Assembly (NCBI GenBank): GCA_027491355.1
Contig: JAIXWI010000017.1
Location: 1-39,078 of the forward strand
DNA from: Bacteroidota bacterium
Lineage (GTDB): Bacteria > Bacteroidota > Bacteroidia > UKL13-3
Direction: 5' to 3'
Length of the DNA: 39,078 bases
The notes under the pieces are model-generated. The model ran no database searches, was not told where the DNA came from, and worked only from the letters and a program-made list of their open reading frames with translations. The position numbers and the translations under genes are program-made. This document shows positions 20,290 to 37,743 of the stretch, piece after piece; position 1 is the first letter of the stretch, and every line of letters starts with the position of its first letter.

Positions 20290-20813
20290 TAGTCTTTGAT
20301 CCTTTCTCTGACTTCTAAAGCTCCATTTTCAACCAAAATTTGGTTCAAAGCTTGAATGTCAGTTTTATTTTCTTGAATTTCTATAGATACAACAAACAAA
20401 TCATCGGTAACTCTTGGGTCAATGATATCAGCATTTTTACCCCAAAACATTTTGTTTACAATAAAAAAGCAGGTTACCATTCCAAATGCCGTGAACAAAA
20501 TACTCAACTCAAAAGTAATTGGAATATAAGTTGGGATATGCAAATTGGGTTTGCCACCAATGATCATTGGCCAATCAATTTTTGATACATATACCTGAAA
20601 TGTTACAGCAAGTGTTAAACCGGTCATCGCAAATAAGAAGGCCGCAACTGTTAAGTTTGATCTTTTGATACCCAATAAACGGTCCATTCCGTGAATGGCA
20701 AATGGTGAATAAACATCATCAACCTTGTAACCTTTATTGATCAGTTTTTTGGTTGTTGAATAAATTTTATCAGGGTTGTCATAAACCCCTAAAATGTACT
20801 TATTAGTTTGCAT
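20289..20813 (-). CDS. actD: Alternative complex III subunit ActD (DUF3341 membrane protein)
   Basis: 174 residues. The N-terminal soluble part [20 protein letters not shown], then [20 protein letters not shown], is the DUF3341 signature of ActD. Two membrane hairpin helices follow (about residues 55-77 and 100-120), then an acidic C-terminal region. ActD is a small structural subunit packed against ActC/ActF. I choose the ATG at 20813, 13 codons inside the longest frame, because it matches the family start and has a Shine-Dalgarno-like AAAGGAGA just upstream, rare for this phylum. The gene overlaps the actC end by 11 nt and the actE start by 1 nt. Confidence 0.92.
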
Positions 20814-22197
20814 GATTTTCTCCTTTCGCATGGTTATGTCCATGGTCTTCATGGTGGGTAGGAATGATACTCTTTACTTCTGCCATATTGATTGTAGGTA
20901 AGAATTTACAGAACAAGAAATACAAAAAGAAGAACAAGCCAAATGAACCAATTAATATACTAACCTCTGTAATGGTAGGAGTATACATAGCCCAGCTTGA
21001 TGGTAAAAAGTCTCTGTGCAATGAGGTTACTATAATTACGAAACGTTCAAACCACATACCAATATTTACAATGATTGACATGATGAAAATGAACCATGGT
21101 GTGGTTCTTGCCCATTTGAACCAAAATACTTGAGGTGCAATGAGGTTACAAGTCATCATGGTCCAATATGCCCACCAATAAGGTCCGAAAGCTCTGTTTA
21201 AGAAAGCGTATTGTTCATATTCAACACCAGAATAAGCAGCTACAAAGAATTCAGTAATGTAAGCCATACCTACCATTGTACCTGTTACCATTACAATTTT
21301 AGTCATAGCATCCAAATGGGCTTCAGTGATGTAATCTTTGTAATTCATTACTTCACGAGCAATGATTAACAAGGTCAATACCATTCCAAATCCTGAGAAG
21401 ATAGCACCCGCAACGAAGTAAGGAGGGAAGATGGTTGTATGCCATCCTGGTACCAACGAGGTTGCAAAGTCCATAGATACAATTGAGTGTACCGACAATA
21501 CAAGTGGGGTTGAAATACCAGCTAAAATTAAACTGATTACTTCATATCTGTGCCAAGTTTTGGTTGATCCATTCCAACCCATTGCAAAAAATCCATACCA
21601 GAATTTTCTTGCTTTTGAAACTGCTCTGTCTCTAACAGTAGCAATATCTGGAATCAATCCAATGTACCAGAATACCAATGAAACTGAAAAGTAAGTTGAG
21701 ATTGCAAATACGTCCCAAACCAATGGTGAGTTAAAATTAACCCATAAAGTACCAAATGCATTTGGGAGCGGAATTGGCCAATAAGCAACCCAAGGTCTTC
21801 CCATGTGTGAAAGAATGAATGAAGCTGCGCAAATTACAGCAAAAATGGTCATTGCCTCTGCCGATCTGTTGATTGACATACGCCATTTTTGACGGAATAA
21901 TAACAATACTGCAGAAATTAAGGTTCCGGCGTGACCAATACCAACCCAAAATACGAAGTTGGTAATATCAAATGCCCATCCAACAGTTTTGTTCAAGCCC
22001 CAGGCTCCTAAACCTACCAAAACAGTATAGGTTGTGGCGCCAATCCAAAGGGCTAAAACCAAAGTTGAAATGCTAAATCCAATCCACCAACTTTTTGTTG
22101 GTGCGTTTTCTAGTGGTCTTGTTACATCGCGTGTTACGTCACGGTATGTTTTGCCACCGGTTACTAATTGGTCTCTAATTGGTGATTCGTATGACAT
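20803..22197 (-). CDS. actC: Alternative complex III subunit ActC (NrfD-like, quinol-binding membrane subunit)
   Basis: 464 residues with about ten membrane helices and a His-rich C-terminal tail ([15 protein letters not shown]). The NrfD/PsrC family block [20 protein letters not shown] starts the membrane part; [20 protein letters not shown] and [19 protein letters not shown] are strongly conserved in ActC. ActC binds menaquinol near the membrane surface and passes its electrons to the iron-sulfur subunit ActB. It lies 20 nt after actB and its last 11 nt overlap actD. The His-rich tail may bind metal, but similar tails are common and no function is claimed. Confidence 0.95.
20819..20826 (-). 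promoter_or_regulatory. Shine-Dalgarno-like sequence of actD
   Basis: AAAGGAGA on the minus strand, with its AGGAG core 6 nt from the ATG at 20813. It lies inside the last codons of actC and decides the actD start in favour of MQTNKYILG. Bacteroidota genes seldom have such a site and no other gene in this window shows one as clear. Confidence 0.6.
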
Positions 22198-22217
22198 GTG
22201 CTAGTGCAGTTTTCTGA

Positions 22218-25200
22218 TTATGATTTTGATTCTGAATGTTGATGAGATTCTTGAGTAGCTTCATTTTTATGTTTACCAGCATGGTGTTCCTCTGCAACCA
22301 AATTTTCATCTACATTTCTAATTTTGGTTAAGTAAGTAACTGATGGTTGTACATTGTATTCATCTAATAAGAAGAAGCCTCTTTCATTTTTGAAGTGTTT
22401 AGCTACATTGCTTTCTGGATCATGAATATCTCCAAATACAATGGCATCAGCAGGACAAGTTTGTTGGCAAGCAGTCTTAACATCACCATCTTTAATGGTT
22501 CTGTTCTCTAATTTAGCTGCTAATTTACCTGATTGAATTCTTTGTACGCAGAAAGAACATTTTTCCATAACACCTCTAGATCTAACGGTTACATCAGGAT
22601 TGATGACCATTCTGCCTAAATCGTTATTGAAATTGAAATCAAATTGGTCATTTTCACGGTATTTGAACCAATTGAATCGACGAACTTTATAAGGACAGTT
22701 GTTTGCGCAATAACGTGTACCAACACAACGGTTGTAAGCCATGTGGTTCAATCCTTCACTGCTATGAACAGTAGCTAATACAGGACAAACTGTTTCACAA
22801 GGTGCATGTCCACAATGTTGACACATCAATGGTTGGTGAACAACACTCACATTTTCGAAATCAACACCAGTTTCAGGATTGTTGTATTCTTTTTCTTTGC
22901 TGATATTGTTGTTTTCCTTGTTTCTGAAACGGTAATAGCGATCAATTCTAATCCAATGCATCTCTCTGCGTTTCAATACTTCAGCTCTACCAACAACAGG
23001 AACATTGTTCTCAGCATTACAAGCAACAACACAAGCGCCACATCCAGTACATTTGTTTAAATCAACGGCCATGGTCCATTTGTGTCCTTTGCTGTCGTGT
23101 TCACCCCATAAAGTTAAGAGGTTACCATTTTCTTTTAAAATAGCATGGTGATCGTGGTTACCAGCTTTGGTATCTTTTAAATACTCATTCAAAGAAGCCT
23201 CTTTGATCAAGGCCCTACCTTCAATGGTATGGTGTGTTTGCGTTTGAGCCAACTCATATTTACCTTCAGCCTTTTCAATGGTAATAGCTGCGTTATTGAA
23301 TTGTACAGACTTATTGGTAAATGCAGCCATTTGGTAAGCATTTTTACCTACATTCTTTGCTACTCTACCTCCAGAAGTACGACCATAACCAACTGCAATT
23401 GCTATGGTGTTGTTTGGTTGACCAGGTTGAACCAATACCGGTAAAGCTTCGATTTTACCTGCTTTTGAAGTGATATTGATCAAATCACCGTCCTTCACAC
23501 CAATTGAATCAGCAGTTGCTTTGCTGATATTGGCATAGTTATCCCAAGTTACTTTACTTATTGGATCTGGTAATTCTTGTAACCATGGGTTGTTTGCATG
23601 TGAACCATCTCTCACACCAACTTTAGCGTACAACCTTACCTCTAAATTTGTTTTAGAGGAAGTATACAAACTGTATGCGGCATTAACTGTACCACTCAAA
23701 TCAACGTTAGCTTTAGCTGCAGTTGTTGCTTTAGCAGGGGTCATGTAAAAACCGTCATGTAAACTTTTGATCCAAGCATCTTCAAAACTAGCTTCATTGC
23801 TCAAAACTGCTTTCCAATTAGAACGGATGTAATCGTAGTAAGCAATATTGTTATCAGCCCATCTCAACAAGCTTTCTTCCATTTGTCTGGTATTAAAAAC
23901 TGGAGAAATAGTTGGTTGTGTCAATGCAAAGTAACCAGCTTTAGGTTCGTTGTCATTCCAAGATTCTAAGAAATGGTTAGCTGGCACATGGTATTTACAC
24001 AATTCAGCTGTTTCGTCTAAACTACTGTTTGATGTAATTGTAGTTTTTGCTTTCTTGATACCTTCAATAAGTTTAGCCGAATTGTAGTAGGCATAAACTG
24101 GATTTACATCCCAGAAAATAACAGTGTCAACAGTACCTGAATTCAGGTCATTGACTAAAGTTTCAAAAGCAGCATCGTTGCTAAAATGTTGGTTACTGTA
24201 ATTGTCTAAATCTACAGTTGTACCAATGTTATTCAATAAACTATTGATAGCATTTACCAATAATTGGTGGTCTAAATTGTTTGATCCTGAAACTACCAAT
24301 GATGCCCCTTTTGCGGCCCATAATTCTTTGGCAGTCATTTCAATCATATTCAATGGCAATTCAACAGTTGGCATATTGCCTAATGAAGGAGCACCAGCCA
24401 ATGCAGCAATTTTATTGTACAAGCTAATCAAATAAACACCTTCTGATGATGGTTTAATTGGATAACGCACATCCGCATTTGAACCCGTTAAAGACAGTAA
24501 AGATTCAAACTGAATATGACGGCTCATACCTTTGTTTTCAGGTGTTCTGTTAGATGCCCATTGCTTGGTATATTCAGTTGGAGAGATCCATGTTCCAAGA
24601 AAATCAGCACCAAATGATACAATCACTTTAGCCAAGTCAAAACGGTATCCAGGAATTACATTTTTACCAAATGCAATTTTGTTTGATTCTGCAATTGAAC
24701 CCAATGAGAATGCTTCAAATTGGATGTGTTGGGTTGAAGGATATTTGCTTGTAAATTCTGCAATTGCTTTTTTACCTGAAGGACTGTTGGTAGTTTTTGT
24801 AACCAATCGGATATTTTTTGCTGATGCCAAAGCTTTTTTGATTTCTTTGTCAATAGCTTCCCAAGTAGATTCTGCCCCATCAATTTGAGGAGCGTGAAAC
24901 CTGTCATTGTCATACAATCCTAATAATGCACCTTGGCCTGTGGCACAAACTGCGCCTTTGAACACTGGCGAATCGTTGTTACCTTCAATTTTGATTGGCC
25001 TTCCTTCTCTTGTTTTAACTAGAATGCTACAATTGGCAGCACATGCATTACAAGTACTCGCATAGTAGTTAGGTATACCTGGCGTAATGTTTTCAGGCTT
25101 TACGATATATGGAATTGCATTTTTAATAGGTGTTTTATTGCAAGCAGCCAATGCAACAGCTGAAATACCAAATCCAAAATATTTTAAAAAGTCGCGTCTG

Positions 25201-25343
25201 TTGGCATTCAATCCACCATCTTCTTCTGAAAAAACTTCTTCTAAGGGAATTCCCTCAGCAAATTCATTTCTTTTATGCTGTAAAAATTGAGGGTCCTTGT
25301 TTAACTCCTCAAGACCTTTCCAGTAATTATTTTTGTTTTCCAT
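22218..25343 (-). CDS. actB: Alternative complex III subunit ActB (molybdopterin-like plus Fe-S ferredoxin domain)
   Basis: 1041 residues, a fusion of a molybdopterin oxidoreductase-like domain (about residues 85-740) and a four-cluster ferredoxin domain (about 755-970). A Tat signal lies unusually far inside the protein: twin Arg 49-50 in NRRDFLKYFGFGISAV, then LAAC with Cys68, suggesting Tat export and lipidation, as known for Act complexes. The Fe-S cysteines are CTGCGACVVAC, CQHCGHAPCETVC, CVGTRYCANNC, and CSFC with CQQTC. In studied ActB proteins the first domain has no molybdenum cofactor, and the second carries three [4Fe-4S] and one [3Fe-4S] cluster moving electrons from ActC toward ActA. 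A His/Glu-rich tail closes it. Order after actA (39 nt) and before actC (20 nt) is the standard one. Confidence 0.95.
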   Translation of the reverse strand: MENKNNYWKGLEELNKDPQFLQHKRNEFAEGIPLEEVFSEEDGGLNANRRDFLKYFGFGISAVALAACNKTPIKNAIPYIVKPENITPGIPNYYASTCNACAANCSILVKTREGRPIKIEGNNDSPVFKGAVCATGQGALLGLYDNDRFHAPQIDGAESTWEAIDKEIKKALASAKNIRLVTKTTNSPSGKKAIAEFTSKYPSTQHIQFEAFSLGSIAESNKIAFGKNVIPGYRFDLAKVIVSFGADFLGTWISPTEYTKQWASNRTPENKGMSRHIQFESLLSLTGSNADVRYPIKPSSEGVYLISLYNKIAALAGAPSLGNMPTVELPLNMIEMTAKELWAAKGASLVVSGSNNLDHQLLVNAINSLLNNIGTTVDLDNYSNQHFSNDAAFETLVNDLNSGTVDTVIFWDVNPVYAYYNSAKLIEGIKKAKTTITSNSSLDETAELCKYHVPANHFLESWNDNEPKAGYFALTQPTISPVFNTRQMEESLLRWADNNIAYYDYIRSNWKAVLSNEASFEDAWIKSLHDGFYMTPAKATTAAKANVDLSGTVNAAYSLYTSSKTNLEVRLYAKVGVRDGSHANNPWLQELPDPISKVTWDNYANISKATADSIGVKDGDLINITSKAGKIEALPVLVQPGQPNNTIAIAVGYGRTSGGRVAKNVGKNAYQMAAFTNKSVQFNNAAITIEKAEGKYELAQTQTHHTIEGRALIKEASLNEYLKDTKAGNHDHHAILKENGNLLTLWGEHDSKGHKWTMAVDLNKCTGCGACVVACNAENNVPVVGRAEVLKRREMHWIRIDRYYRFRNKENNNISKEKEYNNPETGVDFENVSVVHQPLMCQHCGHAPCETVCPVLATVHSSEGLNHMAYNRCVGTRYCANNCPYKVRRFNWFKYRENDQFDFNFNNDLGRMVINPDVTVRSRGVMEKCSFCVQRIQSGKLAAKLENRTIKDGDVKTACQQTCPADAIVFGDIHDPESNVAKHFKNERGFFLLDEYNVQPSVTYLTKIRNVDENLVAEEHHAGKHKNEATQESHQHSESKS

Positions 25344-25382
25344 TGAAATTAATTTTCGTTTTAAATTGGTCTTTTAAACTGA

Positions 25383-26675
25383 TTAATAGTGGCATTTTCC
25401 ACATTCTAAACCACCGTTTTGTGCAACTGTAACCATGCTTTTACCGTCAAGTTTTAACTTAGCATGAAGCTTTTCATAGTAATTGTTATTAGCTACATCT
25501 ACTTTGGCTTCACGGTGACAATTGATACACCATCCCATTTGTAGGCTTCTTTGTTGAGAAACCACTGGCATTTTTTCAATAGGACCATGACAAGCTTGGC
25601 ATTCAACTTTACCTATTTTCACGTGTTGAGCGTGGTTAAAATAAGCATGGTCAGGTAGGTTGTGAATACGCACCCATTTGATAGGGGTTTTCTCCTTCGT
25701 AGGGTCGTAAGCTCTTTTTTCTGCATCCCAACCTACTGCATTGTATATTTTTTGGATTTCAGGTGATACTGAACCATTGTATTTTTCTTTTGCTTGAACA
25801 TGCATGTGACAATTCATACAAGTGCTTGGAGAAGGAATAGATGCTTGTTTGCCTTTATCTGCTCCGTTGTGACAATACAAACAATTTATTTTGTAGGTAC
25901 CAGCATGTAATTCATGAGAGTATTTTATAGGTTGTTCTGGTGCATAACCTTTTTGAACGCCAATGTATTTATTACCGTAATCAAAGCCATACAATCCAAA
26001 TACCAACATAAATAACAAGGAAACCATCAACGTGCCAACAACTGGATGTTTAACAAATAATTTGTATCTGAAACTGGCTTTGTTTTGCTTCCAAGAGATA
26101 GCTATTGGTTCTGAGTTTTCTTCAGTAGCTGGGAATTTTTGTGCATGCAATTCATCTACTACTTTCTTTACTTTGTTGATGACAAATAACAATACCACTA
26201 ATATAAGTGTCATCACCAACAATGCCCAGAAGGTTGTTTGGCTGTAAAATCCACTATTGTTTGAGTTTGATTCAGTTTTGCTGGTTCCATCTCCAGCTAC
26301 ACTTGCAGTAGCTGTGGTTTGAGCAGGCTGTTCACTCTCTTTTTGAATGTAATCTACAATGGATTTAATTTCTGCATCGCTCAATTGTTCAAACGAAGTC
26401 ATTACTGATTCATTGTTTTCTTTGTACAATGCAACAGCAGTAGGGTCTCCTGATTTGATGAGTGCTTGAGAGTTTTTAATCCATTTTAATAGCCACTCGG
26501 GATTTCTTCTTTTGTGAACATCCTTTAAAGCCGGACCAACTATTTTATCGTTGATGGCATGGCAAGCCGTACAATTGGCTTTGAAAATTTTTTCTCCTTC
26601 AGTGGCATCTGCCAATACTGAATTCAGTGAGAAAACAAAAATTACAACAAATGCGAGTAATCGATAAATCTTCAT
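25383..26675 (-). CDS. actA: Alternative complex III subunit ActA (multihaem cytochrome c, six CxxCH motifs)
   Basis: 430 residues in two parts. Residues 1-22 are a signal peptide, and 23-115 form a mono-haem cytochrome c domain (CTACH at 35-39, VGPALKDVHKRRNPEWLLKW as in class I cytochromes, Met candidate at VMTSF). After a Ser/Thr-rich linker come a membrane helix at about 148-166 and another at about 213-230, then the pentahaem part with CLYCH (265), CMNCH (286), CQACH (359), CINCH (383) and CGKCH (425). ActA is the periplasmic electron-delivery subunit. The best-described ActA proteins carry five haems, so the N-terminal domain looks like an added cytochrome c. It is the first gene of the operon, preceded by 294 nt without a gene. 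Confidence 0.93.
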   Translation of the reverse strand: MKIYRLLAFVVIFVFSLNSVLADATEGEKIFKANCTACHAINDKIVGPALKDVHKRRNPEWLLKWIKNSQALIKSGDPTAVALYKENNESVMTSFEQLSDAEIKSIVDYIQKESEQPAQTTATASVAGDGTSKTESNSNNSGFYSQTTFWALLVMTLILVVLLFVINKVKKVVDELHAQKFPATEENSEPIAISWKQNKASFRYKLFVKHPVVGTLMVSLLFMLVFGLYGFDYGNKYIGVQKGYAPEQPIKYSHELHAGTYKINCLYCHNGADKGKQASIPSPSTCMNCHMHVQAKEKYNGSVSPEIQKIYNAVGWDAEKRAYDPTKEKTPIKWVRIHNLPDHAYFNHAQHVKIGKVECQACHGPIEKMPVVSQQRSLQMGWCINCHREAKVDVANNNYYEKLHAKLKLDGKSMVTVAQNGGLECGKCHY

Positions 26676-26969: not shown

Positions 26970-28895
26970 CTAGTGGTCCAATTGTTCATAAACTGAATTT
27001 TTACTTTTAAATTCAGGAACAATTGATTTCATTTTGGCCACAATAGACATCATGTTTTGGGTTTCATACAAAGCTATCAACTCGTTTATTTGATTTGAAA
27101 CGGTTTCAAAGTTGTTTTCTTTAACATTAGCTATCATTATTTTATGGTGATGGGTAGGTATTGTATTTTCGCCATCGTTGAGAAGTTCTTCATAGATTTT
27201 TTCACCGGGTCTTAAACCTGTGTAAACAATTTGAATATCCTTTCCAAGTGTTAGCCCCGATAACTTGACCATTTTTTTGGCTAAATCAATAATTTTTATT
27301 GAATTACCCATGTCAAAAATAAATATTTCTCCTCCTTGACCCATATGACCAGCCTCTAGTACCAACTGACTCGCTTCAGGAATGGTCATGAAATACCGAG
27401 TTATTTCTGGGTGTGTCACAGTTATAGGGCCACCTTCTTCAATTTGTTTTCTGAATCTAGGAATAACTGAACCACTAGAACCTAGTACATTTCCAAATCG
27501 AGTGGTAATAAACTGGGTTGTTTTACCTTGTTTTTTGATTTCATTGAACAAGGATTGTACATAAATTTCAGCAATACGTTTACTTGCACCCATCACATTT
27601 GTGGGATTGACGGCTTTATCTGTGCTTACCATCACAAATTTACTCACACCAAATTCTACTGATGTGTCAGCCAATGTTTTGGTTCCTTTTACATTCACCC
27701 ATACTGCTTCGCTAGGATTTTCTTCCATTAAAGGAACATGTTTGTATGCCGCAGCATGGTAAATAATTTCAGGATTGTATTTTTCGAATATGTTTTTTAG
27801 TCTGGAATAATTTGTGATGTCAGCAAGCACAATTTCAATCGATACATTTTCATCTTTGAAATTTGATTTTAAGAAAGCTTCAAGGTCATATAACCTAACT
27901 TCTGATTTGTCCAAACAGATAATTTTTTTTGGCCTAAATTTGAGTATTTGAATGACCAACTCGGAACCGATAGAACCCGCAGCACCAGAAACCAATACAA
28001 CTTTATTATTGAGTTGTTTGTTGATTTGTGTGATGTCAAGTTCAATGATTTCTCTTTCAATTAAGTCTTCAATTTTGATGGCCTTTATTTGATTAAAGCT
28101 CAATTCTCCATTGATCCATTTTTCAATAGGAGGAATGGTTTTAACATTCAAATTCAAGTTCAAGCATATTTCAACGAGTTCTTGTTTTTTAGATTTAGTG
28201 ATAGATGGGATAGCTATGATTAAGTTTTCAATATTGTATTTTTTGATGGTATCTTCAAATTGTGAGCGCCCATCATATATTTTTACTCCATCTAACATTT
28301 TGCGGTATTTGTTGGAGCTATCGTCAAAAAACACAACTACTTTTCCAGCTCCTCTGCTCTCCATTTCTAATTTCCGTTTTGTAGTTAAACCTGATTCACC
28401 TGCTCCATAAATTGCATAATTGATGGTTTGGGAATTGTTATTTGCTATGATTCTGATGTAAAGTAATTTGATGAAAACTCTGAATGAAGACAAAAAGAAA
28501 ATTGAAAGACAAAAATCTATCAAGATAATTGACTTAGGGAAGAAGGTTATGTCTGATCCCAAGGTAGAATTCAGTATAAAATCTGATAGCAACATCAATA
28601 CACTAGATGTAGACATTGCATAAAAAATTCTCAACCCATCTTGTACACTGGTATGCCTAATTATAAAGGTATGTAACCTGAAATAACCAATTGTCAAGCC
28701 TTTGATAAAAATATACAAAGGAAGTACCCTCAGTGCAAGAACAATTTGAACAGATACATCTCCTACAGGGTAGAAGCTAAACCTTGTAAATAAAGATAAA
28801 ATATAACCAATGATACACAATGAAATATCAAACAAAAAAATGATCCATCTTGGGATTTTACTTGATTTTGTAAATATGAATTTTAGAAATTCCAT
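26970..28895 (-). CDS. WbpM/CapD-family membrane UDP-GlcNAc 4,6-dehydratase
   Basis: 641 residues. Four N-terminal membrane helices (about 17-37, 46-68, 90-107, 121-143) precede a first Rossmann domain (YAIYGAGESGL, 160-170) and a second, catalytic SDR domain (LVSGAAGSIGSELV, 301-314). The catalytic region reads VMVSTDKAVNPTNVMGASKR: the Tyr of the SDR Y-x3-K pair is Met435, with Lys439, the Ser-Met-Lys form typical of WbpM-like enzymes. These convert UDP-GlcNAc to UDP-4-keto-6-deoxy-GlcNAc, the precursor of QuiNAc and FucNAc. It is divergent, with 355 nt between, from the sugar operon at 29251 that includes WbpV-like and WbpL-like genes, its usual partners. A TATATTTG -7-like element lies at 28953-28946 without a good -33 box. 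Confidence 0.92.
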   Translation of the reverse strand: MEFLKFIFTKSSKIPRWIIFLFDISLCIIGYILSLFTRFSFYPVGDVSVQIVLALRVLPLYIFIKGLTIGYFRLHTFIIRHTSVQDGLRIFYAMSTSSVLMLLSDFILNSTLGSDITFFPKSIILIDFCLSIFFLSSFRVFIKLLYIRIIANNNSQTINYAIYGAGESGLTTKRKLEMESRGAGKVVVFFDDSSNKYRKMLDGVKIYDGRSQFEDTIKKYNIENLIIAIPSITKSKKQELVEICLNLNLNVKTIPPIEKWINGELSFNQIKAIKIEDLIEREIIELDITQINKQLNNKVVLVSGAAGSIGSELVIQILKFRPKKIICLDKSEVRLYDLEAFLKSNFKDENVSIEIVLADITNYSRLKNIFEKYNPEIIYHAAAYKHVPLMEENPSEAVWVNVKGTKTLADTSVEFGVSKFVMVSTDKAVNPTNVMGASKRIAEIYVQSLFNEIKKQGKTTQFITTRFGNVLGSSGSVIPRFRKQIEEGGPITVTHPEITRYFMTIPEASQLVLEAGHMGQGGEIFIFDMGNSIKIIDLAKKMVKLSGLTLGKDIQIVYTGLRPGEKIYEELLNDGENTIPTHHHKIMIANVKENNFETVSNQINELIALYETQNMMSIVAKMKSIVPEFKSKNSVYEQLDH

Positions 28896-29250: not shown

Positions 29251-30516
29251 ATGATCAAAAATGAAAAAACAATTGCAATAATAGGCTTGGGTTATGTTGG
29301 TTTGCCCCTTGCAGTTGAGTTCGGAAAAATTGTCAATACAATTGGTTTCGACATATATGAGAATCGTATCAAAGAACTGAAAGAGGGTATAGACAGAACT
29401 TTAGAAACAAGCAAAGAAGAGTTAAATTCAGCCACAAAGTTAAAGCTAACTCACAATGTAGCAGACCTAACATCAGCACAAATATTTATTGTAACAGTAC
29501 CTACTCCAATTGACAAAAACAATAAGCCAGATTTAAATCCTTTACTTTCTGCCAGTAAATCAGTTGGTACTGTTCTTAAAAAAGGAGATATTGTAATCTA
29601 TGAATCTACCGTTTTTCCCGGATGTACTGAAGAAGAGTGCGTACCAATTTTAGAAAAAGCAAGTGGGCTTCAATTCAACATAGATTTTTATTGTGGATAT
29701 TCTCCAGAGCGAATAGTGCCAGGAGACAAGGAACGCACACTGACAAAAATTAAAAAAATCACTTCTGGTTCTACACCTGAAATAGCTCATGAAATTGATC
29801 AATTATACCTACAAATCATCAAAGCAGGAACATATTTAGCACCAAGTATCAAAGTTGCAGAAGCTGCAAAAGTCATCGAAAATTGTCAAAGAGATTTAAA
29901 CATTTCATTTGTCAATGAGTTAGCGCTCATCTTTGATAGGATGCAAATTGACACAACAGAAGTACTTGAAGCAGCAGGCACCAAATTCAATTTCTTGCCT
30001 TTTAAGCCAGGTTTAGTTGGAGGACATTGCATTTCAGTAGATCCTTATTATTTAACTACAAAAGCTGAATCACTTGGTTACTACCCTGAAGTAATACATT
30101 CAGGTAGAAGAATCAATGACAATATGGGGGAGTTTATCGCCAATAAAGTTGTAAAACTGATGATCCATAAAAACCTCACCATAAAAGGCTCAAAGGTATT
30201 GGTAATGGGTATCACCTTCAAGGAGAATTGTCCTGATTTGAGAAATTCAAAGGTCATAGATGTTATCAATGAATTGAAAGAATTTGAATTGGAGGTAGAC
30301 GTGTTCGACCCTCAGGCAGATGCTGATGAAGTTTTTCATGAATATGGTTTGAACTTAAAGCAACAGTCTGAGCTCATTCAATACAATGCTGTGATACATG
30401 CAGTATCACACAAAGAATTTAATCAGTTCAATTTCCAATCAATTATGAATTCCAATGCTGTATTGTATGATGTGAAGTCTGTACTTCCCAAACATATGGT
30501 AGACGGTAGGTTGTAA
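29251..30516 (+). CDS. Nucleotide sugar dehydrogenase, TviB/WbpO type (UDP-HexNAc 6-dehydrogenase)
   Basis: 421 residues of the UDP-glucose/GDP-mannose dehydrogenase family, a four-electron oxidation of the sugar C6 to a uronic acid using two NAD+. N-terminal Rossmann motif IGLGYVGLPL (residues 11-20), VTVPTP (81-86), YESTVFPGCTEEECVP (117-132), the domain-joining helix EAAKVIENCQRDLNISFVNE (204-223), and catalytic GLVGGHCISVDPYYL with Cys260. The wording around the Cys and FNFLPFKPGL resembles TviB and WbpO, which act on UDP-GlcNAc or UDP-GalNAc, more than UDP-glucose dehydrogenases. It is the first gene of a plus-strand operon, 12 nt before gmd. The exact substrate is inference. Confidence 0.92.
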   Translation: MIKNEKTIAIIGLGYVGLPLAVEFGKIVNTIGFDIYENRIKELKEGIDRTLETSKEELNSATKLKLTHNVADLTSAQIFIVTVPTPIDKNNKPDLNPLLSASKSVGTVLKKGDIVIYESTVFPGCTEEECVPILEKASGLQFNIDFYCGYSPERIVPGDKERTLTKIKKITSGSTPEIAHEIDQLYLQIIKAGTYLAPSIKVAEAAKVIENCQRDLNISFVNELALIFDRMQIDTTEVLEAAGTKFNFLPFKPGLVGGHCISVDPYYLTTKAESLGYYPEVIHSGRRINDNMGEFIANKVVKLMIHKNLTIKGSKVLVMGITFKENCPDLRNSKVIDVINELKEFELEVDVFDPQADADEVFHEYGLNLKQQSELIQYNAVIHAVSHKEFNQFNFQSIMNSNAVLYDVKSVLPKHMVDGRL

Positions 30517-30528
30517 AAATAAAAAAAG

Positions 30529-31668
30529 ATGTCAAAAATTGCATTGATAACCGGTGTAACCGGTCAGGATGGTTCTTATTTAGCCGAATTGTTATTGTCA
30601 AAAGGTTATGAGGTACATGGAATCAAAAGAAGAAGTTCTTTATTCAATACAGATAGAATAGATCATTTGTACCAAGATCCGCATGAAAAAAACATACATT
30701 TCAAACTACATTTTGGAGATTTAACAGATGCTACCAATTTAATCAGAATCATACAAGAGGTTCAACCTGATGAAATTTATAATTTGGCTGCAATGAGTCA
30801 TGTTCATGTCAGCTTTGAAACGCCAGAATATACAGCCAATGCAGATGGATTAGGTACTTTAAGAATTTTAGAAGCAGTTAGATTGTTAGGACTCACAAAA
30901 AAAACAAAAATTTACCAAGCATCAACTTCTGAATTGTATGGTTTGGTTCAAGCTGTTCCACAGTCTGAATCGACTCCATTTTATCCTAGGTCACCATATG
31001 CTGTAGCTAAACTTTATGCATATTGGATTACTGTGAATTACCGTGAGGCATACCAAATGTTTGCATGCAATGGAATTTTGTTCAATCATGAAAGCCCTGT
31101 AAGAGGAGAAACATTTGTTACAAGAAAAATAACCAGAGCAGCTGCTAAAATAGTTTTAGGTATGCAATCACAATTGTATTTGGGCAATCTGAATGCCCAA
31201 AGAGATTGGGGACATGCAAAAGATTATGTTGAGGCTATGTATTTAATGCTTCAACAGGAACAAGCAGAAGATTTTGTAATTGCAACTGGAATAACAACAT
31301 CAATTAGAGAATTTGTAAAGATGGTTTTTGCGGAGTTAGGAGTGAATCTAGAATTCAAAGGTAACCTAATTGACGAAGTTGGATTCATTTCCTCTATTGA
31401 TAAAGAAAAACTCAATCAATTAGGAGTAGCTAATTGTCCATTGAAAATAGGCGATGAAATCATTGCTGTAGATCCACGTTATTTTAGGCCAACTGAAGTT
31501 GATTTATTGGTTGGAGATGCTACCAAGGCTCAAAACAAATTGAATTGGAAACCTAAATTCAATCTGAAATCATTGGTTGAAGATATGGTTTTGTCGGATT
31601 TGAAATTAATGCATAAAGAAAAGTTCTTATTCGATGCTGGTCATTCTATTTTCAACCAAAACGAGTAG
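30529..31668 (+). CDS. gmd: GDP-mannose 4,6-dehydratase
   Basis: 379 residues, an SDR enzyme that converts GDP-D-mannose to GDP-4-keto-6-deoxy-mannose. Seen: [17 protein letters not shown] (7-23), the Gmd-specific [45 protein letters not shown], the catalytic STSELYG and [14 protein letters not shown] with Tyr-x3-Lys, and [15 protein letters not shown]. Length is slightly above the usual 350-373. The product is the branch point to GDP-fucose, GDP-rhamnose or GDP-perosamine; no partner enzyme for those is encoded in the window, so the final sugar is open. It sits 12 nt after the dehydrogenase gene and 26 nt before a glycosyltransferase gene. Confidence 0.95.
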
Positions 31669-31694
31669 TTTCCAATTACTTTTACATACCAAGT

Positions 31695-32447
31695 TTGAAA
31701 GTATCTATTGTTACAGTTTGTAAAAATGTAGAAGCATCTATTGAGCTTACACTGTTATCGGTATTAAAACAAGATTATTCAAATATCGAATTTATCATTA
31801 TAGATGGTAAATCGAGTGATGGTACAAACCAGATTTTAAAAAAATACCAAAATCATTTTGCGTTTTACATCAGTGAACCTGATCATTCTCTTTATGAGGC
31901 TTTGAACAAAGGAATCCGTGCCTCAACAGGCGAAATCATAGGTTTTCTTCATGCAGGAGATGTTTTTTATAATCATGAAGTTATTTCAAAAATTGTTTCA
32001 GTTTTTTCAAAGGAAAACAATACAGAAGCCGTATATACAGATGTTTGCTTTGTGAACAATTATAATAAAATTGTAAGGTATATTCGGCCTCAATATTTTG
32101 CTTTAAATGACTTTAGAAAAGGCTTAATGCCTCCACATCCAGGTTTTTTCTGCAAAAAATCATGCTACAATCAACAAGGTTTGTTCAATGAAGCATTCGA
32201 AATTGCTTCAGATTTTGATATGTTGCTACGCTTGTTATACTTGAAAAAAATCAGTGCAAAATATTTACCAATTTTATCGGTTAATATGCGAACTGGTGGT
32301 AAAAGCAACAATGGTTTGAAAAGTTATTTTATTAAAACAAAAGAAATCATTGGTTCTTTGAAATCTCATCAAATTAAATCTTCTTTTACAGTGGTTTTAT
32401 TTAGATTTATATTTAAATTAAAACAGTTTAAATCAATCAATAACTAA
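31695..32447 (+). CDS. Family 2 glycosyltransferase
   Basis: 250 residues with a GT-A fold. The start VSIVTVCKNVEASIELTLLS, then VLKQDYSNIEFIIIDGKSSD, is the nucleotide-binding half; DHSLYEALNKGIRASTGEII and GFLHAGDVFY contain the metal-binding acidic residue, and MPPHPGFFCKK and ASDFDMLLRLL are the acceptor-side blocks seen in the WcaA-like branch. It would transfer one sugar of the repeat unit at the cytoplasmic membrane face; donor and acceptor are unknown. The start is TTG at 31695, in register with the family start; no ATG is available. The next gene begins 9 nt after the stop. It is the only clear GT2 of this locus within the window. Confidence 0.88.
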   Translation: MKVSIVTVCKNVEASIELTLLSVLKQDYSNIEFIIIDGKSSDGTNQILKKYQNHFAFYISEPDHSLYEALNKGIRASTGEIIGFLHAGDVFYNHEVISKIVSVFSKENNTEAVYTDVCFVNNYNKIVRYIRPQYFALNDFRKGLMPPHPGFFCKKSCYNQQGLFNEAFEIASDFDMLLRLLYLKKISAKYLPILSVNMRTGGKSNNGLKSYFIKTKEIIGSLKSHQIKSSFTVVLFRFIFKLKQFKSINN

Positions 32448-32455
32448 TTCATTCT

Positions 32456-33406
32456 ATGTCTATTTTAGTTTCAGGAACTACTGGTTTTGTTGGGAAGCAC
32501 CTGATTGCTTATTTAAACGTTAAATTCCCCAATCAGCAAATTTTTCATTTAAACAGGTTAAAAACCAATTCTGAAACGGGTATCACATGGGAGCAAATTA
32601 CACAAAACAACATGCCTGCAATTTCAAGTATTGTACATTTAGCAGGAATGGCTCATGATACAAAAAACAATACCAACGAGCACGTTTATTTCGAGGTCAA
32701 TACAGAATTAACTGTTAAATTATTCAAAAGCTTTTTGGCATCGCATGCAAATCAATTTATTTACATCAGTTCAGTAAAAGCAGTTGCAGATCAAGTAGAA
32801 ACCCTTCTGAAAGAAGATATGCACCCAAGTCCACAAACAGCATATGGGAGGTCTAAATTAGCAGCTGAAACTCAAATAACAGAATTACTCACAGCATATC
32901 TTGCTAAGCATCCAACAAGCAATAAAAAGTTATACATTCTGAGGCCATGTATGATTCATGGGCCTGGTAATAAAGGGAATCTCAATCTTTTGTATAATTT
33001 TATCCAAAAGGGTTTACCTTATCCTTTAGCTGCCTTTAATAACAAACGATCTTTTTTAAGTATTTTTAATTTAGTCTATGTCATTGGAAAGCTCATAGAA
33101 AGCCATATTCCTTCAGGAGTTTATCACATTGCTGATGACGACTACCTTAGTACAAACCAACTGATTGACACCATTGCAGAAATGAACAAAAAAAAGGTAT
33201 TCAAACTCTATATCCCTCAGAAGTTGGTTAGAGCCATTTTTAAATTTTTTGATGTGATTAATTTTCCAATTCAAACAGAACAATTGAACAAAATGGTTGA
33301 AAATTATCAAGTGAGTAACGAAAAAATTCTAAGAGAACTGAACTTGAAACTTCCTGTTTCTTCCATAGACGGTTTAAAAATTACAATCAATTCATTTAAA
33401 AAATAA
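32456..33406 (+). CDS. NAD-dependent epimerase/dehydratase, WbpV-like 4-ketoreductase
   Basis: 316 residues, extended SDR fold. N-terminal ILVSGTTGFVGKHLIAYL, then SSIVHLAGMAHDT, YISSVKAVADQ (catalytic Ser) and TAYGRSKLAAE (Tyr-x3-Lys), followed by ILRPCMIHGPGNKGNLN. The HLAGMAHD and LRP-x-x-x-x-GPG-x-KGN pattern resembles the WbpV/WbpK group, which reduces UDP-4-keto-6-deoxy-HexNAc (the WbpM product) to UDP-QuiNAc or UDP-FucNAc. The next gene, 2 nt downstream, is the WbpL/WecA-like initiating transferase, the same pairing as in Pseudomonas O-antigen loci, and a WbpM-like gene is divergent from this operon. Subgroup and product are inference from this context. Confidence 0.8.
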   Translation: MSILVSGTTGFVGKHLIAYLNVKFPNQQIFHLNRLKTNSETGITWEQITQNNMPAISSIVHLAGMAHDTKNNTNEHVYFEVNTELTVKLFKSFLASHANQFIYISSVKAVADQVETLLKEDMHPSPQTAYGRSKLAAETQITELLTAYLAKHPTSNKKLYILRPCMIHGPGNKGNLNLLYNFIQKGLPYPLAAFNNKRSFLSIFNLVYVIGKLIESHIPSGVYHIADDDYLSTNQLIDTIAEMNKKKVFKLYIPQKLVRAIFKFFDVINFPIQTEQLNKMVENYQVSNEKILRELNLKLPVSSIDGLKITINSFKK

Positions 33407-33408
33407 CT

Positions 33409-34338
33409 ATGGTTTTAGAGTTACTGATCTTATCAATTCTATTATTTGTATTAGAGTTTACTTTTATAAAAGTATCACAATATTTTAAAATAATAGATTT
33501 ACCCAATGAAAGAAGCTCTCATCAAATTCCTACAATTAGAGGTGGTGGAATTGTTTTTGTTATAGCTACACTTTTCTATTTCATACAATACAATTTCCAA
33601 TTTCCTTATTTAGTTTTAGCTGTCTGCATTGTTGGAACAATCAGTTTCTGGGACGATGTAAAATCACTTTCAAATAAAGTCAGGTTTACTTTCCATTTAA
33701 TTGCTATGTTACTTGTTTTCTATCAATTAGACTTGTTCCATGTCCTTTCACCAGTATATACATGCATTGCGTTGGTTTTGTTTATTGGTATCCTAAATGC
33801 ATACAACTTTATGGATGGGATCAATAGCATAACAGCTTTGTATTCACTTTCTATTTTAATTCCATTTGCATTAACAGAAACGGATTACTCTTTAAAAATG
33901 CTTGAAATTTATATTGTAATTTCAGTGATTGTTTTCTCATTTTTTAATATCAGAAAAGTAGCAAAAGTATTTGCAGGAGATATTGGAAGTATAGCAATGT
34001 CTATACTCATCGTATTTTTAATCATCTCCAGAATGAAGGAGACTGGAAATTATACTTTAATTGGCGTTTTGTTAGTGTATGGTGTAGATACCATATTTAC
34101 GCTAATGCACAGGATTTATAAAAAGGAAAATATATTCAAGGCACATCGTCAGCACTTGTATCAATTCCTTACCAACGAGGATAAACATGCTCATATAAAA
34201 ATTGGCATGTTTTATTCAATCATACAGTTTGGACTCAATGTGTTGTTGTTGAATCAGCAGGTAAGTTTGATTGTATTCATTGGTCTGGTTTTTTTATTTA
34301 GTCTTTTGTATTGGAAGCTTAAATGGAAATACATTTAA
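33409..34338 (+). CDS. WecA/WbpL-like undecaprenyl-phosphate sugar-1-phosphate transferase (MraY/GT4 superfamily)
   Basis: 309 residues with about ten membrane helices. Hallmarks: DLPNERSSHQIPTIRGGGIV after the first helix, the Asp-Asp pair in FWDDVKSLSNKVR, NAYNFMDGINSI, FAGDIGSIAMSI, and the C-terminal cytoplasmic loop motif AHRQHLYQFL. Such enzymes start a polysaccharide by moving a HexNAc-1-phosphate (GlcNAc, QuiNAc or FucNAc) from its UDP form to undecaprenyl phosphate. The pairing with the WbpV-like gene 2 nt upstream favours a WbpL-type FucNAc/QuiNAc substrate. It is somewhat shorter than WecA of enterobacteria. It is the last gene of the plus-strand operon and is followed by a strong bidirectional hairpin terminator. 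Confidence 0.9.
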   Translation: MVLELLILSILLFVLEFTFIKVSQYFKIIDLPNERSSHQIPTIRGGGIVFVIATLFYFIQYNFQFPYLVLAVCIVGTISFWDDVKSLSNKVRFTFHLIAMLLVFYQLDLFHVLSPVYTCIALVLFIGILNAYNFMDGINSITALYSLSILIPFALTETDYSLKMLEIYIVISVIVFSFFNIRKVAKVFAGDIGSIAMSILIVFLIISRMKETGNYTLIGVLLVYGVDTIFTLMHRIYKKENIFKAHRQHLYQFLTNEDKHAHIKIGMFYSIIQFGLNVLLLNQQVSLIVFIGLVFLFSLLYWKLKWKYI

Positions 34339-34348
34339 ACTCATTCAT

Positions 34349-34380
34349 AAAAAAAGAGCACCATTTGGTGCTCTTTTTTT
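34349..34380. terminator. Bidirectional intrinsic terminator between the WecA/WbpL-like gene and wzc
   Basis: A perfect 14-bp inverted repeat, AAAAAAAGAGCACC (34349-34362) and GGTGCTCTTTTTTT (34367-34380), with an ATTT loop. It gives a U tract in both directions. The last two bases overlap the TAA stop of wzc, so wzc ends inside the terminator arm. Confidence 0.92.
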
Positions 34381-36883
34381 ATATGCCTAGTATACGTTTC
34401 CAAACAGGTTTCTTTTCTTGTTCTATTTCTCCATAGTTACCATATCCATATCCATACCCGTAACCATATCCATACCCGTATCCGTAACCATAGCCATAGC
34501 CATAATTGTTACCATACCCATATCCATAAGAACCGTATCCATAACCATAAACATTCGCAAAATTGATGTCATTGAATACCAGCCCAACATTTTTTTCTTG
34601 TTCTTGACTATATATATCATTGATCATGTTGAGGTAATTTTTTCTACTGATTCTTTGACGAACAACATACAAAATGATGTCAGTATGTGGCATCAAGTCT
34701 AAACCGTCAGCAACCAATCCAATAGGAGGGGTATCAAGAACAATAAAATCAAAATCAGACTTGAGTTCAGCTATCAGATTTTTAAATTCATCAGACATGA
34801 TTAACTCTGAAGGGTTAGGAGGTGTAGGCCCAGCTGTAATGATACTTAAATTAGGAGTTAAGGTGTTTTGGATAATATCGTTTTTACCTACTTTTCCAAT
34901 TAGATAGTTGGTTAATCCAATATGGTTATCTAGTTTAAAATCTTGGAAAATTTTAGGTTTTCTTAAATCCACACCAATTAGCAATGTTTTGAAACCACCA
35001 ATTGCCAGTACTGATGCTAAGTTCATACTGATAAAAGTTTTTCCTTCACCAGATACTGTTGAGGTAACTAATATTGTATTACACCCAGATTTGTTTTTGG
35101 TGATGAAATTCATATTTGACCTCAGATTTCTGAAACTTTCAGACACTGCAGCCTTGGGATGATTTGCAATTACCAATGTTGATTTTTTATTGTTGTGTGG
35201 AATGTTACCAACAATAGGAATTGAGGTTACCGATTGAAGAATACTGTGGTTGTTGATTCTATTGTCGAAAAATTCAATAAAGAATATAACAACCAAAGGT
35301 ATAACAAGACCAAAAATGATTGAAAATAAATAATTCATGCCAGTTTTTGGTGATGTTTTCATAATCACAACAGCATTGTCTACAATCTTATTATCTGAGA
35401 TATTTGCTGCTCCTGCTATACCAGCCTCAGCTTTCTTTTCTAATAAATAAGTGAGTAATTTATCGTTTAACTTATATTTCCTTTCAATGTTTAGTAGTTT
35501 TTGCTCTTTTTCAGGTAGAGTGGAAACTTGACCTTCAAATCCATTGATTCTGTTAGAGATGTCAGCAATTAATATTTTAGAATTGTTTTGGATATTTTTG
35601 ATGTTTTCTAAAATGGTCGCTTTGATTAAATCTATGGATTTATCTTTCTCCAATAAAGCAGGATTGATTCTTTCCATGCTTTGAGTTAAAATGAGTTTTT
35701 CTGCGTATAACTGCACTAATTTTGCAACCAATTGGTTCAACAATGGATCAGGAATACCCATGATACTTGGTGCAGCTAGTTTATCTAAGTCTTTGTTTTT
35801 GTGAAGGTATTCGTTTAAGTAAGCATAGTATTTTATCTTTATTTCCTCTTCTGCTTTTTTCTTCTCCAAATCATACAGATTTTCCATTAAGTTTTTACCT
35901 TGAATACTGATGTCAACCAGTTTGTTTTGTATTCTAAAGTTTTGAAGCCTGTCTTCAAAAAACTGAAGTGAGTCTGTAATAGAAACAAGGTATTTGTCAA
36001 TGAATGTAATGGTATTCATTGAAATTTGGTTTTTGTCATACAATCCTTTTTGGATGTATGTTTCCATGAGTGTATTGATGAATTTAACATCTTTTTCTGG
36101 CCACAATCCTTCTTTAAAAATTTCAACAACACTTGTTTGTTTATTGATTGGTTTGATTTTAAATGAACCCGCGTACTTGTTAACCAAAGATTTTTTAGAG
36201 TTGAAGACAAAAGCATATTCCTCTCCATATTTGATGGATTCAGGAAGTGTAATGTAAATTCTGAATGCATAACTGTTACCTTTCACAAGTTCACCTACTT
36301 TAAATTTGCCTTCGGTTAGAACAAAAGGGACATTGTATAAGGCTTGCGTTTTAGGGTCTAATACAATTGGTTTTGCTTCTTTGACATATAAATTAAACTC
36401 ACTTTCATTGATAAATTTGATTAAATAAGAAACACCATAAGTCTGAACATGGCTAGAATCCACTAAAACTGTAAATGGACTATTCGGATACAAATCAATT
36501 TTTTTAATTTGACCCCTTAAAAAATAGTCAATATTGAAATCACAATTTTGGATGGTTTCATTGGTAACCATCCGTGAACTCATTAATTGAATTTCATTCT
36601 CAACGTTTTTACTTGTATTTAACAATTGTAAGCCTTGAATGAAATTGTCCATTCCTTCAAAACTATTTCTACCTCCTTTTTCTTTTATCAAAAAATATCC
36701 TTTTACTAGATATTTTTCTGAAGAGTAACGATTTACTAGGAATGCAATTAGAAAGCTTAAAACAATTGAAAGGATGTAATAAGGTAAATATCCAAGGAAT
36801 TTACCAATTAACGTTTTAAAGTTTTTACTAGCATCAGATGAATTGATAGGGGTAAATTCCTTGAAGTCTTGTTTATTGTTCAT
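34379..36883 (-). CDS. wzc: Wzc-type tyrosine autokinase/polysaccharide co-polymerase with Tyr-Gly-repeat tail
   Basis: 834 residues. A membrane helix at about 31-51 opens a Wzz-type periplasmic domain; helical coiled-coil regions follow (about 290-480), and a second helix lies at 516-537. The cytoplasmic BY-kinase carries Walker A SGEGKT (611-616) in LVTSTVSGEGKTFISM, Walker A' LLIGVDLRKP (634-643) and Walker B FIVLDTPPIG (713-722). The C-terminal tyrosine cluster that such kinases autophosphorylate is here an almost pure Tyr-Gly run, residues 779-818, with 18 tyrosines, followed by a short charged tail ending VWKRILGI. Wzc controls chain length and export with Wza, encoded 11 nt upstream. 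Tyr codons alternate TAT and TAC and Gly uses four codons, so the tract is not a simple 6-bp slippage product. The C-terminus runs into the terminator. Confidence 0.93.
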   Translation of the reverse strand: MNNKQDFKEFTPINSSDASKNFKTLIGKFLGYLPYYILSIVLSFLIAFLVNRYSSEKYLVKGYFLIKEKGGRNSFEGMDNFIQGLQLLNTSKNVENEIQLMSSRMVTNETIQNCDFNIDYFLRGQIKKIDLYPNSPFTVLVDSSHVQTYGVSYLIKFINESEFNLYVKEAKPIVLDPKTQALYNVPFVLTEGKFKVGELVKGNSYAFRIYITLPESIKYGEEYAFVFNSKKSLVNKYAGSFKIKPINKQTSVVEIFKEGLWPEKDVKFINTLMETYIQKGLYDKNQISMNTITFIDKYLVSITDSLQFFEDRLQNFRIQNKLVDISIQGKNLMENLYDLEKKKAEEEIKIKYYAYLNEYLHKNKDLDKLAAPSIMGIPDPLLNQLVAKLVQLYAEKLILTQSMERINPALLEKDKSIDLIKATILENIKNIQNNSKILIADISNRINGFEGQVSTLPEKEQKLLNIERKYKLNDKLLTYLLEKKAEAGIAGAANISDNKIVDNAVVIMKTSPKTGMNYLFSIIFGLVIPLVVIFFIEFFDNRINNHSILQSVTSIPIVGNIPHNNKKSTLVIANHPKAAVSESFRNLRSNMNFITKNKSGCNTILVTSTVSGEGKTFISMNLASVLAIGGFKTLLIGVDLRKPKIFQDFKLDNHIGLTNYLIGKVGKNDIIQNTLTPNLSIITAGPTPPNPSELIMSDEFKNLIAELKSDFDFIVLDTPPIGLVADGLDLMPHTDIILYVVRQRISRKNYLNMINDIYSQEQEKNVGLVFNDINFANVYGYGYGSYGYGYGNNYGYGYGYGYGYGYGYGYGYGYGNYGEIEQEKKPVWKRILGI
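34430..34549 (-). repeat. Imperfect 6-bp tandem repeat encoding the Tyr-Gly tail of Wzc
   Basis: About 120 nt of degenerate TAY-GGN units inside wzc: three, then three, then eleven Tyr-Gly pairs, separated by Ser and Asn-Asn, then Asn-Tyr-Gly. Third-position bases vary between units, so the DNA repeat is imperfect while the peptide repeat is nearly exact. Copy number could still vary between strains. Confidence 0.9.
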
Positions 36884-36894
36884 TGATTCTTTCT

Positions 36895-37743
36895 TTATTT
36901 GAGGTTGTTCAAAATGATGTAAGTATTCAGTACTAATAGAAAGGTGCTTAACAATGGTAATACAGCATTGATTGAACTCTGAAAGTTACTTAAATTTCCA
37001 ATTGAACGAGACTTAACGGGTTGCACATACAAAATATCATTAGGTTGTATGTAATAATAGCTCGATTTGATAATGTTTTTGTCAGTTAAATCAATTGGTA
37101 TGAGTTTATTTTCCCCATTTTCCTCTCTAATTAAAATTAAATTTGTACGCATGGCTATTTCATTCACATCACCAGCCATAGCCAAAGCTTCAAAAATGTT
37201 CAAATGGTTTACCATAAAAAAGTGTTGTCCAGGACGGTTTACAGCACCTAATATGCTAAATCTAAATTCTGCCAATTTTACTTGAAGAAAAAAGTTTTTG
37301 AAATATTTTGAGCCTTCATTGTACATAAGGGCTTTCGCCTCTTCAACTGTTTTACCTTTTAATGGAATTTTACCAATGTATGGTAACGCTAAATCTCCTT
37401 CTGTGTCAAGCGAGTACCCCATCAGGTAAAACGGAGTTCCAGCACCACCTTGTGAGAGAATTTGCATATTCATGTTGCCACCAAATAATGGGTTGAAGAG
37501 TGAGTTCATTTTTTCATCTTCTGTTACCATCCTTATGTATAAAATATCTCCTGGTTTTAATCGATATTCTACAAAACTAGATTTTACGGTTTCTATTTTT
37601 GAATTTAGTGTTTCCTGTTTATTTTGGAGATAGAGGTATTTTTTATTGCCAATACAGCTCGAAACAAGTATCGATAAAAAAATATATAATATTCCTTGTT
37701 TTAAATTTGAACTTGAAACAAAGTATTGCTTGTTTTTTTTCAT
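36895..37743 (-). CDS. wza: Wza-like polysaccharide export lipoprotein
   Basis: 282 residues. A lipoprotein signal ends in ILVSSC with Cys30. The Poly_export domain begins at VEYRLKPGDILYIRMV and includes DTEGDLALPYIGKIPLKGKT with the usual VEEAKALM helix; a SLBB-type domain follows (FRFSILGAVNRPGQHFFMVN, LNIFEALAMAGDVNEIAMRT, YYIQPNDILYVQPVKSR). The C-terminus has a hydrophobic helix (VLPLLSTFLLVLNTYIIL), as in many Bacteroidota Wza proteins that span the outer membrane. It forms the export channel working with Wzc, whose gene follows after 11 nt. A well-matched promoter and an 18-bp palindrome lie upstream. Function is firm; the polymer is unknown. Confidence 0.93.
   Translation of the reverse strand: MKKNKQYFVSSSNLKQGILYIFLSILVSSCIGNKKYLYLQNKQETLNSKIETVKSSFVEYRLKPGDILYIRMVTEDEKMNSLFNPLFGGNMNMQILSQGGAGTPFYLMGYSLDTEGDLALPYIGKIPLKGKTVEEAKALMYNEGSKYFKNFFLQVKLAEFRFSILGAVNRPGQHFFMVNHLNIFEALAMAGDVNEIAMRTNLILIREENGENKLIPIDLTDKNIIKSSYYYIQPNDILYVQPVKSRSIGNLSNFQSSINAVLPLLSTFLLVLNTYIILNNLK

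Follow-up and report, generated by a model that had tools for sequence, protein, structure and literature searches.

Research on capsules and biofilms has yet to settle by what means BY-kinase tails determine polymer output. For Escherichia coli Wzc, two reports describe a tail which inserts into the active site of the neighbouring subunit and which is phosphorylated from the C-terminus inward, with the Tyr at i-2 of the active-site Tyr occupying a pocket (PMC11986026, PMC8285477). They also describe the tail as disordered when N711 would need to occupy this pocket and the octamer as lost past the 3pY state (PMC11986026, PMC8285477), and no individual Tyr is essential or sufficient (PMC8285477). 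In the K30 Wzc, a PCP-2a BY-kinase (7nhr), the tyrosines reported as phosphorylated are 708, 713, 715, 717 and 718, with a gap at N711 (PMC11986026). For VpsO of Vibrio cholerae, a BY-kinase with a multi-Tyr tail, both the position and the amount of tail phosphate were described to modulate polymer output (PMC7485978). Within the phylum Bacteroidota, the BY-kinase Ptk1 of Porphyromonas gingivalis carries a C-terminal Tyr cluster and was shown to autophosphorylate and to be a substrate of the LMW phosphatase Ltp1, which dephosphorylates it (PMC4082711).

The kinase studied here is encoded on a window of 39,078 nucleotides (the whole stretch of DNA that was analysed) from a Bacteroidota genome. 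It has the same catalytic residues as the K30 Wzc and likewise ends in a Tyr-rich tail with YxY steps, although the K30 tail is much shorter. It differs from K30 Wzc in a conserved W-containing C-terminal cap and in the pocket, as E675 and S679 of K30 Wzc are not conserved and are represented by Y750 and I754 at those columns. With VpsO it shares the multi-Tyr tail, but VpsO has six tail tyrosines (717, 720, 721, 723, 726 and 727; PMC7485978) with irregular spacing. With Ptk1 it shares both the phylum and the C-terminal Tyr cluster. A search of the open-licence PMC literature found no report of BY-kinase tails built from YG repeats, and two passages on the SCMBYK dipeptide scores do not mention YG.

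Kinase gene and genomic neighbourhood

The following features were assigned to the kinase gene and its surroundings:

34379..36883, minus strand: BY-kinase/polysaccharide co-polymerase gene, 834 aa (open reading frame, GNVR and TIGR01007)
Residues 460-535 of this protein: GNVR domain (PF13807; 29.6 bits, cut-off 27.7)
34556..35167, minus strand: BY-kinase domain, residues ~573-776 (catalytic residues and ExxRxxR)
36895..37743, minus strand: Wza-like Poly_export (OPX) gene, 11 bp upstream of the kinase (47.8 bits, cut-off 28)
29251..34338, plus strand: convergent polysaccharide genes (domain matches)
26970..28895, minus strand: Polysacc_synt_2 nucleotide-sugar dehydratase/epimerase (domain match)

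The protein scored 162.2 bits against the BY-kinase model TIGR01007 (cut-off 108.05). Its Walker A, A' and B variants (GEGKT, DLRKP and IVLDTPP) are all intact, with K615, D639, R641 and D717 aligning with K540 (M in the solved chain), D564, R566 and D642 of K30 Wzc. The ExxRxxR oligomerisation motif is present as ESFRNLR at residue 582 and was also found in 150 of the 157 surveyed BY-kinases of sufficient length. E. coli Wzc (7nhr) was the best solved relative, with the alignment extending into the Wzc tail. As the score against the NCBIfam Wzc equivalog NF008568 was 189.5 bits and thus below the cut-off of 1068, the kinase is regarded as Wzc-like and not as Wzc proper. The N-terminal Wzz model gave no reported match in the protein at E 0.001, and the full-length kinase query matched one protein in the genome. 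An AlphaFold2 model built on a four-row alignment was unusable (mean pLDDT 32.6, with 0 residues above 50).

Of the 27 orthologs, defined as matches with at least 49% identity to the window protein, 25 have an ORF similar to the Poly_export gene at their locus. The convergent plus-strand genes encode a UDP-glucose/GDP-mannose dehydrogenase, a GDP-mannose dehydratase family protein, a glycosyltransferase 2, an epimerase and a glycosyltransferase 4. Three tyrosine phosphatases are encoded in the genome, namely two of the LMW type (PF01451) and one of the CpsB/CapC type (PF19567), all of which lie on other contigs than the kinase. It should also be noted that genes for a multihaem cytochrome, a molybdopterin/4Fe-4S protein and NrfD lie side by side at 20803-26675, a set which we take to resemble an alternative complex III cluster.

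The tyrosine-glycine tail and its orthologs

The C-terminal part of the kinase comprises the following elements, with a short acidic stretch between the tail and the cap:

34430..34549, minus strand: Tyr-Gly tail with 18 Tyr, residues 779-818 (translation)
34532..34549, minus strand: first block (YG)3, residues 779-784 (kept in orthologs)
34439..34504, minus strand: (YG)11 run with 11 Tyr in gap-free YxY register, residues 794-815 (codons and spacing)
34382..34414, minus strand: C-terminal cap KKPVWKRILGI, residues 824-834 (ortholog comparison)

The 40 residues of the tail read YGYGYG-S-YGYGYG-NN-(YG)11-N-YG, with all 18 Tyr lying in 18 YG dipeptides (3+3+11+1); the translated ORF thus bears out the preliminary description, in which an 18-Tyr tail of 3+3+11 pairs plus one more Tyr had been reported at this position. 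These pairs are encoded by seven different hexamers, and Tandem Repeats Finder returned a degenerate array with 69-72% matches in its 6-bp rows and 76% in a 24-bp row. When the 2.44 Mb genome was searched with the (YG)3 codon pattern, 11 overlapping matches were obtained, all inside the kinase gene, while the reversed-pattern control gave 0 matches in the whole genome. As the pattern matches only the kinase gene genome-wide, the tail is not a chance occurrence.

The tail codons were compared between the species of the window and two congeners (proteins 97% identical) in three pairwise comparisons. Over the 40 tail codons, 26, 18 and 15 synonymous codon differences were counted, with equal length and 0 amino-acid changes; over the remaining 794 codons of the kinase, the same three pairs showed 22, 28 and 19 amino-acid differences. 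An identical peptide despite so many synonymous differences means that selection, rather than recent slippage, keeps the pattern, which is what had been proposed initially. The tail peptide is under purifying selection, and within the genus both its sequence and its number of repeat copies are preserved.

All 64 genomes of the window's family gave a match to the kinase query, some of them only to MinD/ParA-like proteins. A Y/G tail is retained in all 27 orthologs, with 14-18 Tyr in 26 of them and 8 Tyr in one (L034), so that absent or unrelated tails in close relatives, named earlier as counter-evidence, did not occur. The first-block motif [VAI][YF]GYGY is likewise present in 27 of 27, and the YG run is broken after exactly three YG in 24. 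The congeners of L034 within the same tail class have 15-17 Tyr (17 in L028, of the same genus group), and the codons around the missing YG units are identical to those of the congeners. The short tail of L034 may represent a repeat-mediated deletion or a collapsed repeat in the draft genome assembly; with this reservation, it suggests that large tail contractions are possibly tolerated.

The conserved cap has the form KPxWKRxxG, and its motif W[KQMN][RK]xx[GN] was found in 26 of the 27 orthologs. A MinD-like amphipathic helix was considered for the cap and not supported: the mean hydrophobic moment was 0.35 against 0.37 for shuffled sequences, and only 12 of the 27 caps scored above the mean of their own shuffles.

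Tails of BY-kinases across the Bacteroidota

A TIGR01007 match over the cut-off was detected in 164 of 247 genomes of the phylum. The kinase profile matched 222 loci, of which 212 were used after dropping three duplicates and seven matches that were MinD/ParA-like or otherwise not kinases (L002, L006-L009, L013 and L014). These 212 distinct BY-kinases comprise 65 from the window's family and 147 from outside it; as the latter are the best-scoring among the TIGR01007 matches listed, the survey fractions lean to canonical kinases.

Among the 212 (best among the matches listed), the median number of tail Tyr was 10, with quartiles of 9 and 13 and a range of 1-26. The stretch is, as described earlier, the C-terminal Tyr tail of a BY-kinase, but the handful of tyrosines assumed as the norm is low for the phylum. 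In the same sample (best among the matches listed), YG runs of at least three units were found in 110 tails; runs of at least eight were found in 40, and the longest had 15. Tails with at least 18 Tyr numbered 23 of the 212 (more than 18 in 15), and all 23 were in the window's family (best among the matches listed). Within this family (n = 65) the median was 16 tail Tyr and 49 tails had a YG run of at least three, while the other families (n = 147, best among the matches listed) had a median of 9 Tyr, a range of 4-15 and such a run in 61. The tandem-YG tail type is thus common in the phylum, and the surveyed tails with at least 18 Tyr all came from the family of the window. The tail had been presented as exceptional, which does not hold for its kind but does in part for its length, as 18 Tyr exceed the maximum of 15 in the other-family sample (n = 147, best among the matches listed). 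The window protein is an ordinary BY-kinase whose tail, though long, belongs to a widespread type.

The same tail type is found in L193, L042, L048, L200 and L215, which have pure YG runs of 15, 14, 13, 13 and 10 units and differ from the window kinase in their break positions and C-terminal ends. Two of them (L193 and L200) also have, unlike the window kinase, a His at the Walker A' Arg. This unusual change of a catalytic motif was observed in nine (YG)n-tailed BY-kinases (L115, L129, L133, L151, L193, L200, L209, L211 and L216).

Tails without YG runs carry other fillers, for example YYKYYYYY or DYYTNYSYYKRTYSEYY. A second recurrent tail type, with Tyr runs replacing Tyr-Gly, was observed in other families (L077-L110 and others) as GYGSYYKYYYYY and YYKYYRYYNYYY. 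A kinase-domain tree of 210 rows (a quick tree under a simple model) requires 13 or more changes of the (YG)3 state.

Possible role of the tail

It is likely that the protein is a Wzc-like polysaccharide co-polymerase BY-kinase whose tail is a long form of a multi-site autophosphorylation substrate. The kinase residues, the Wza-like neighbour, the phosphatases, the selection on the tail and the precedent of Ptk1 argue for the tail being such a substrate with good confidence, while the non-conserved pocket, a deficit of YxY in tails without (YG)3, the relatives L190 and L034 and the location of the phosphatases off the contig count against it. By analogy with E. coli Wzc, unphosphorylated tails would enter the active site of the neighbouring subunit and hold the ring together, and phosphates added from the C-terminal side would weaken it. 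Phosphatases would then reset the ring, and the cycling of phosphorylation would set polymerisation and export, as shown for Wzc and in part for VpsO. Compared with the tail of E. coli Wzc, the window tail probably allows a larger number of phosphorylation steps, and as (YG)11 forms a gap-free YxY register, the same device with more steps is the simplest reading. A finer-graded version of the stepwise phosphorylation of Wzc is plausible, and the graded counter suggested in the preliminary description is compatible with the Wzc data.

Natural controls were available among the relatives. Every kinase of the other families has at least four tail Tyr (147 of 147, best among the matches listed), and the sole protein with one C-terminal Tyr among the 212 (best among the matches listed) is L072. 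In L072 the Walker A' Arg is lost and the Walker B Asp is changed to Glu, with the Walker A Lys kept, and judging from these residues it is likely a pseudokinase. EcpK of Myxococcus xanthus is described as a pseudokinase without Walker motifs and without a Tyr tail (PMC12004946). The two cases are consistent with the tail serving kinase activity. However, L190, in which Asn replaces the Walker A' Asp, keeps five tail Tyr; this weakens the L072 control, so that the link between tail and activity rests on one case.

Gap-free YxY runs of at least 11 Tyr were present in 18 of the 212 proteins (best among the matches listed), the window kinase included. In the 102 tails without (YG)3, YxY was counted 309 times and so below the shuffled expectation of 371.5, whereas the +3 and +4 spacings exceeded it (410 against 354.4 and 412 against 335.3, respectively). 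A phylum-wide YxY rule is therefore not supported, and stepping by two does not hold as a general property of these tails. The pocket was compared in an alignment of the 212 proteins minus one short row, from which L072 was additionally removed for the tree. Position 675 is F, M or Y in 83 of the 109 aligned proteins with (YG)3, and at the column of K701, which in K30 Wzc forms an ion pair with D28 between helices alpha1 and alpha23, the window kinase has F in a gapped part of the alignment. Raw counts of pocket residues and of the W/F-containing end differ between tail classes, and the tree shows no co-variation signal; as only nine independent pairs remain on it, most of them without a difference in the second trait, this comparison has little power.

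It is possible, though doubtful, that the number of Tyr is neutral above a handful of accessible ones, with YG units expanding and contracting by repeat recombination and only the presence of some Tyr being under selection. The range of 4-26 tail Tyr across the survey without L072 (best among the matches listed) would fit such neutrality, as would the 8 Tyr of L034 within flanking codons that look as after a repeat-mediated deletion, although the draft state of that genome leaves room for a collapsed repeat. Neutrality agrees less well with the 14-18 Tyr of 26 of the 27 orthologs and with the constancy of length and sequence between the species of the window and its two congeners over large synonymous divergence. 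Nature provides, within this phylum, a range of tails from 4 to 26 Tyr, roughly half of which are regularly spaced by Gly; to separate the effects of Tyr number and spacing, they are better suited than the E. coli tail with its irregular pattern.

A more specific form of the autophosphorylation reading, which we consider rather unlikely, is that the (YG)n tail acts as a processive phosphorylation ladder in which the number of units determines the count of phosphates that the tail takes up until the ring comes apart, and with it polymer length or run time. Since each Tyr after the first of a run has a Tyr at i-2, each phosphate could advance the tail by a single YG unit within the active site of the neighbour, and no gap comparable to N711 would interrupt it. 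Lineages would then tune how many units lie between the conserved breaks, and the conserved cap would hold or load the free tail end.

Alternating Tyr-Gly resembles aromatic-glycine low-complexity segments, and the tail could accordingly be pictured as a self-associating segment which clusters the export machinery and is dissolved by phosphorylation. Gly is the filler in 877 of 1198 YxY triplets (212 tails, best among the matches listed), which would fit self-association. However, many relatives have Tyr, Lys, Asn, Ser or Arg as fillers instead of Gly, and because the fillers vary in this way it is the Tyr richness of the tails that is constant and not their Gly-Tyr chemistry, making a self-associating tail quite improbable. 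Slippage of a hexanucleotide repeat or an assembly artefact can be rejected as the origin of the tail with near certainty: the tail DNA does form an imperfect 6-bp tandem array, but its copies have diverged at synonymous positions, similar tails recur across the family, and the identical 40-residue peptide in two other species, despite many synonymous changes, refutes this explanation for the window's genus.
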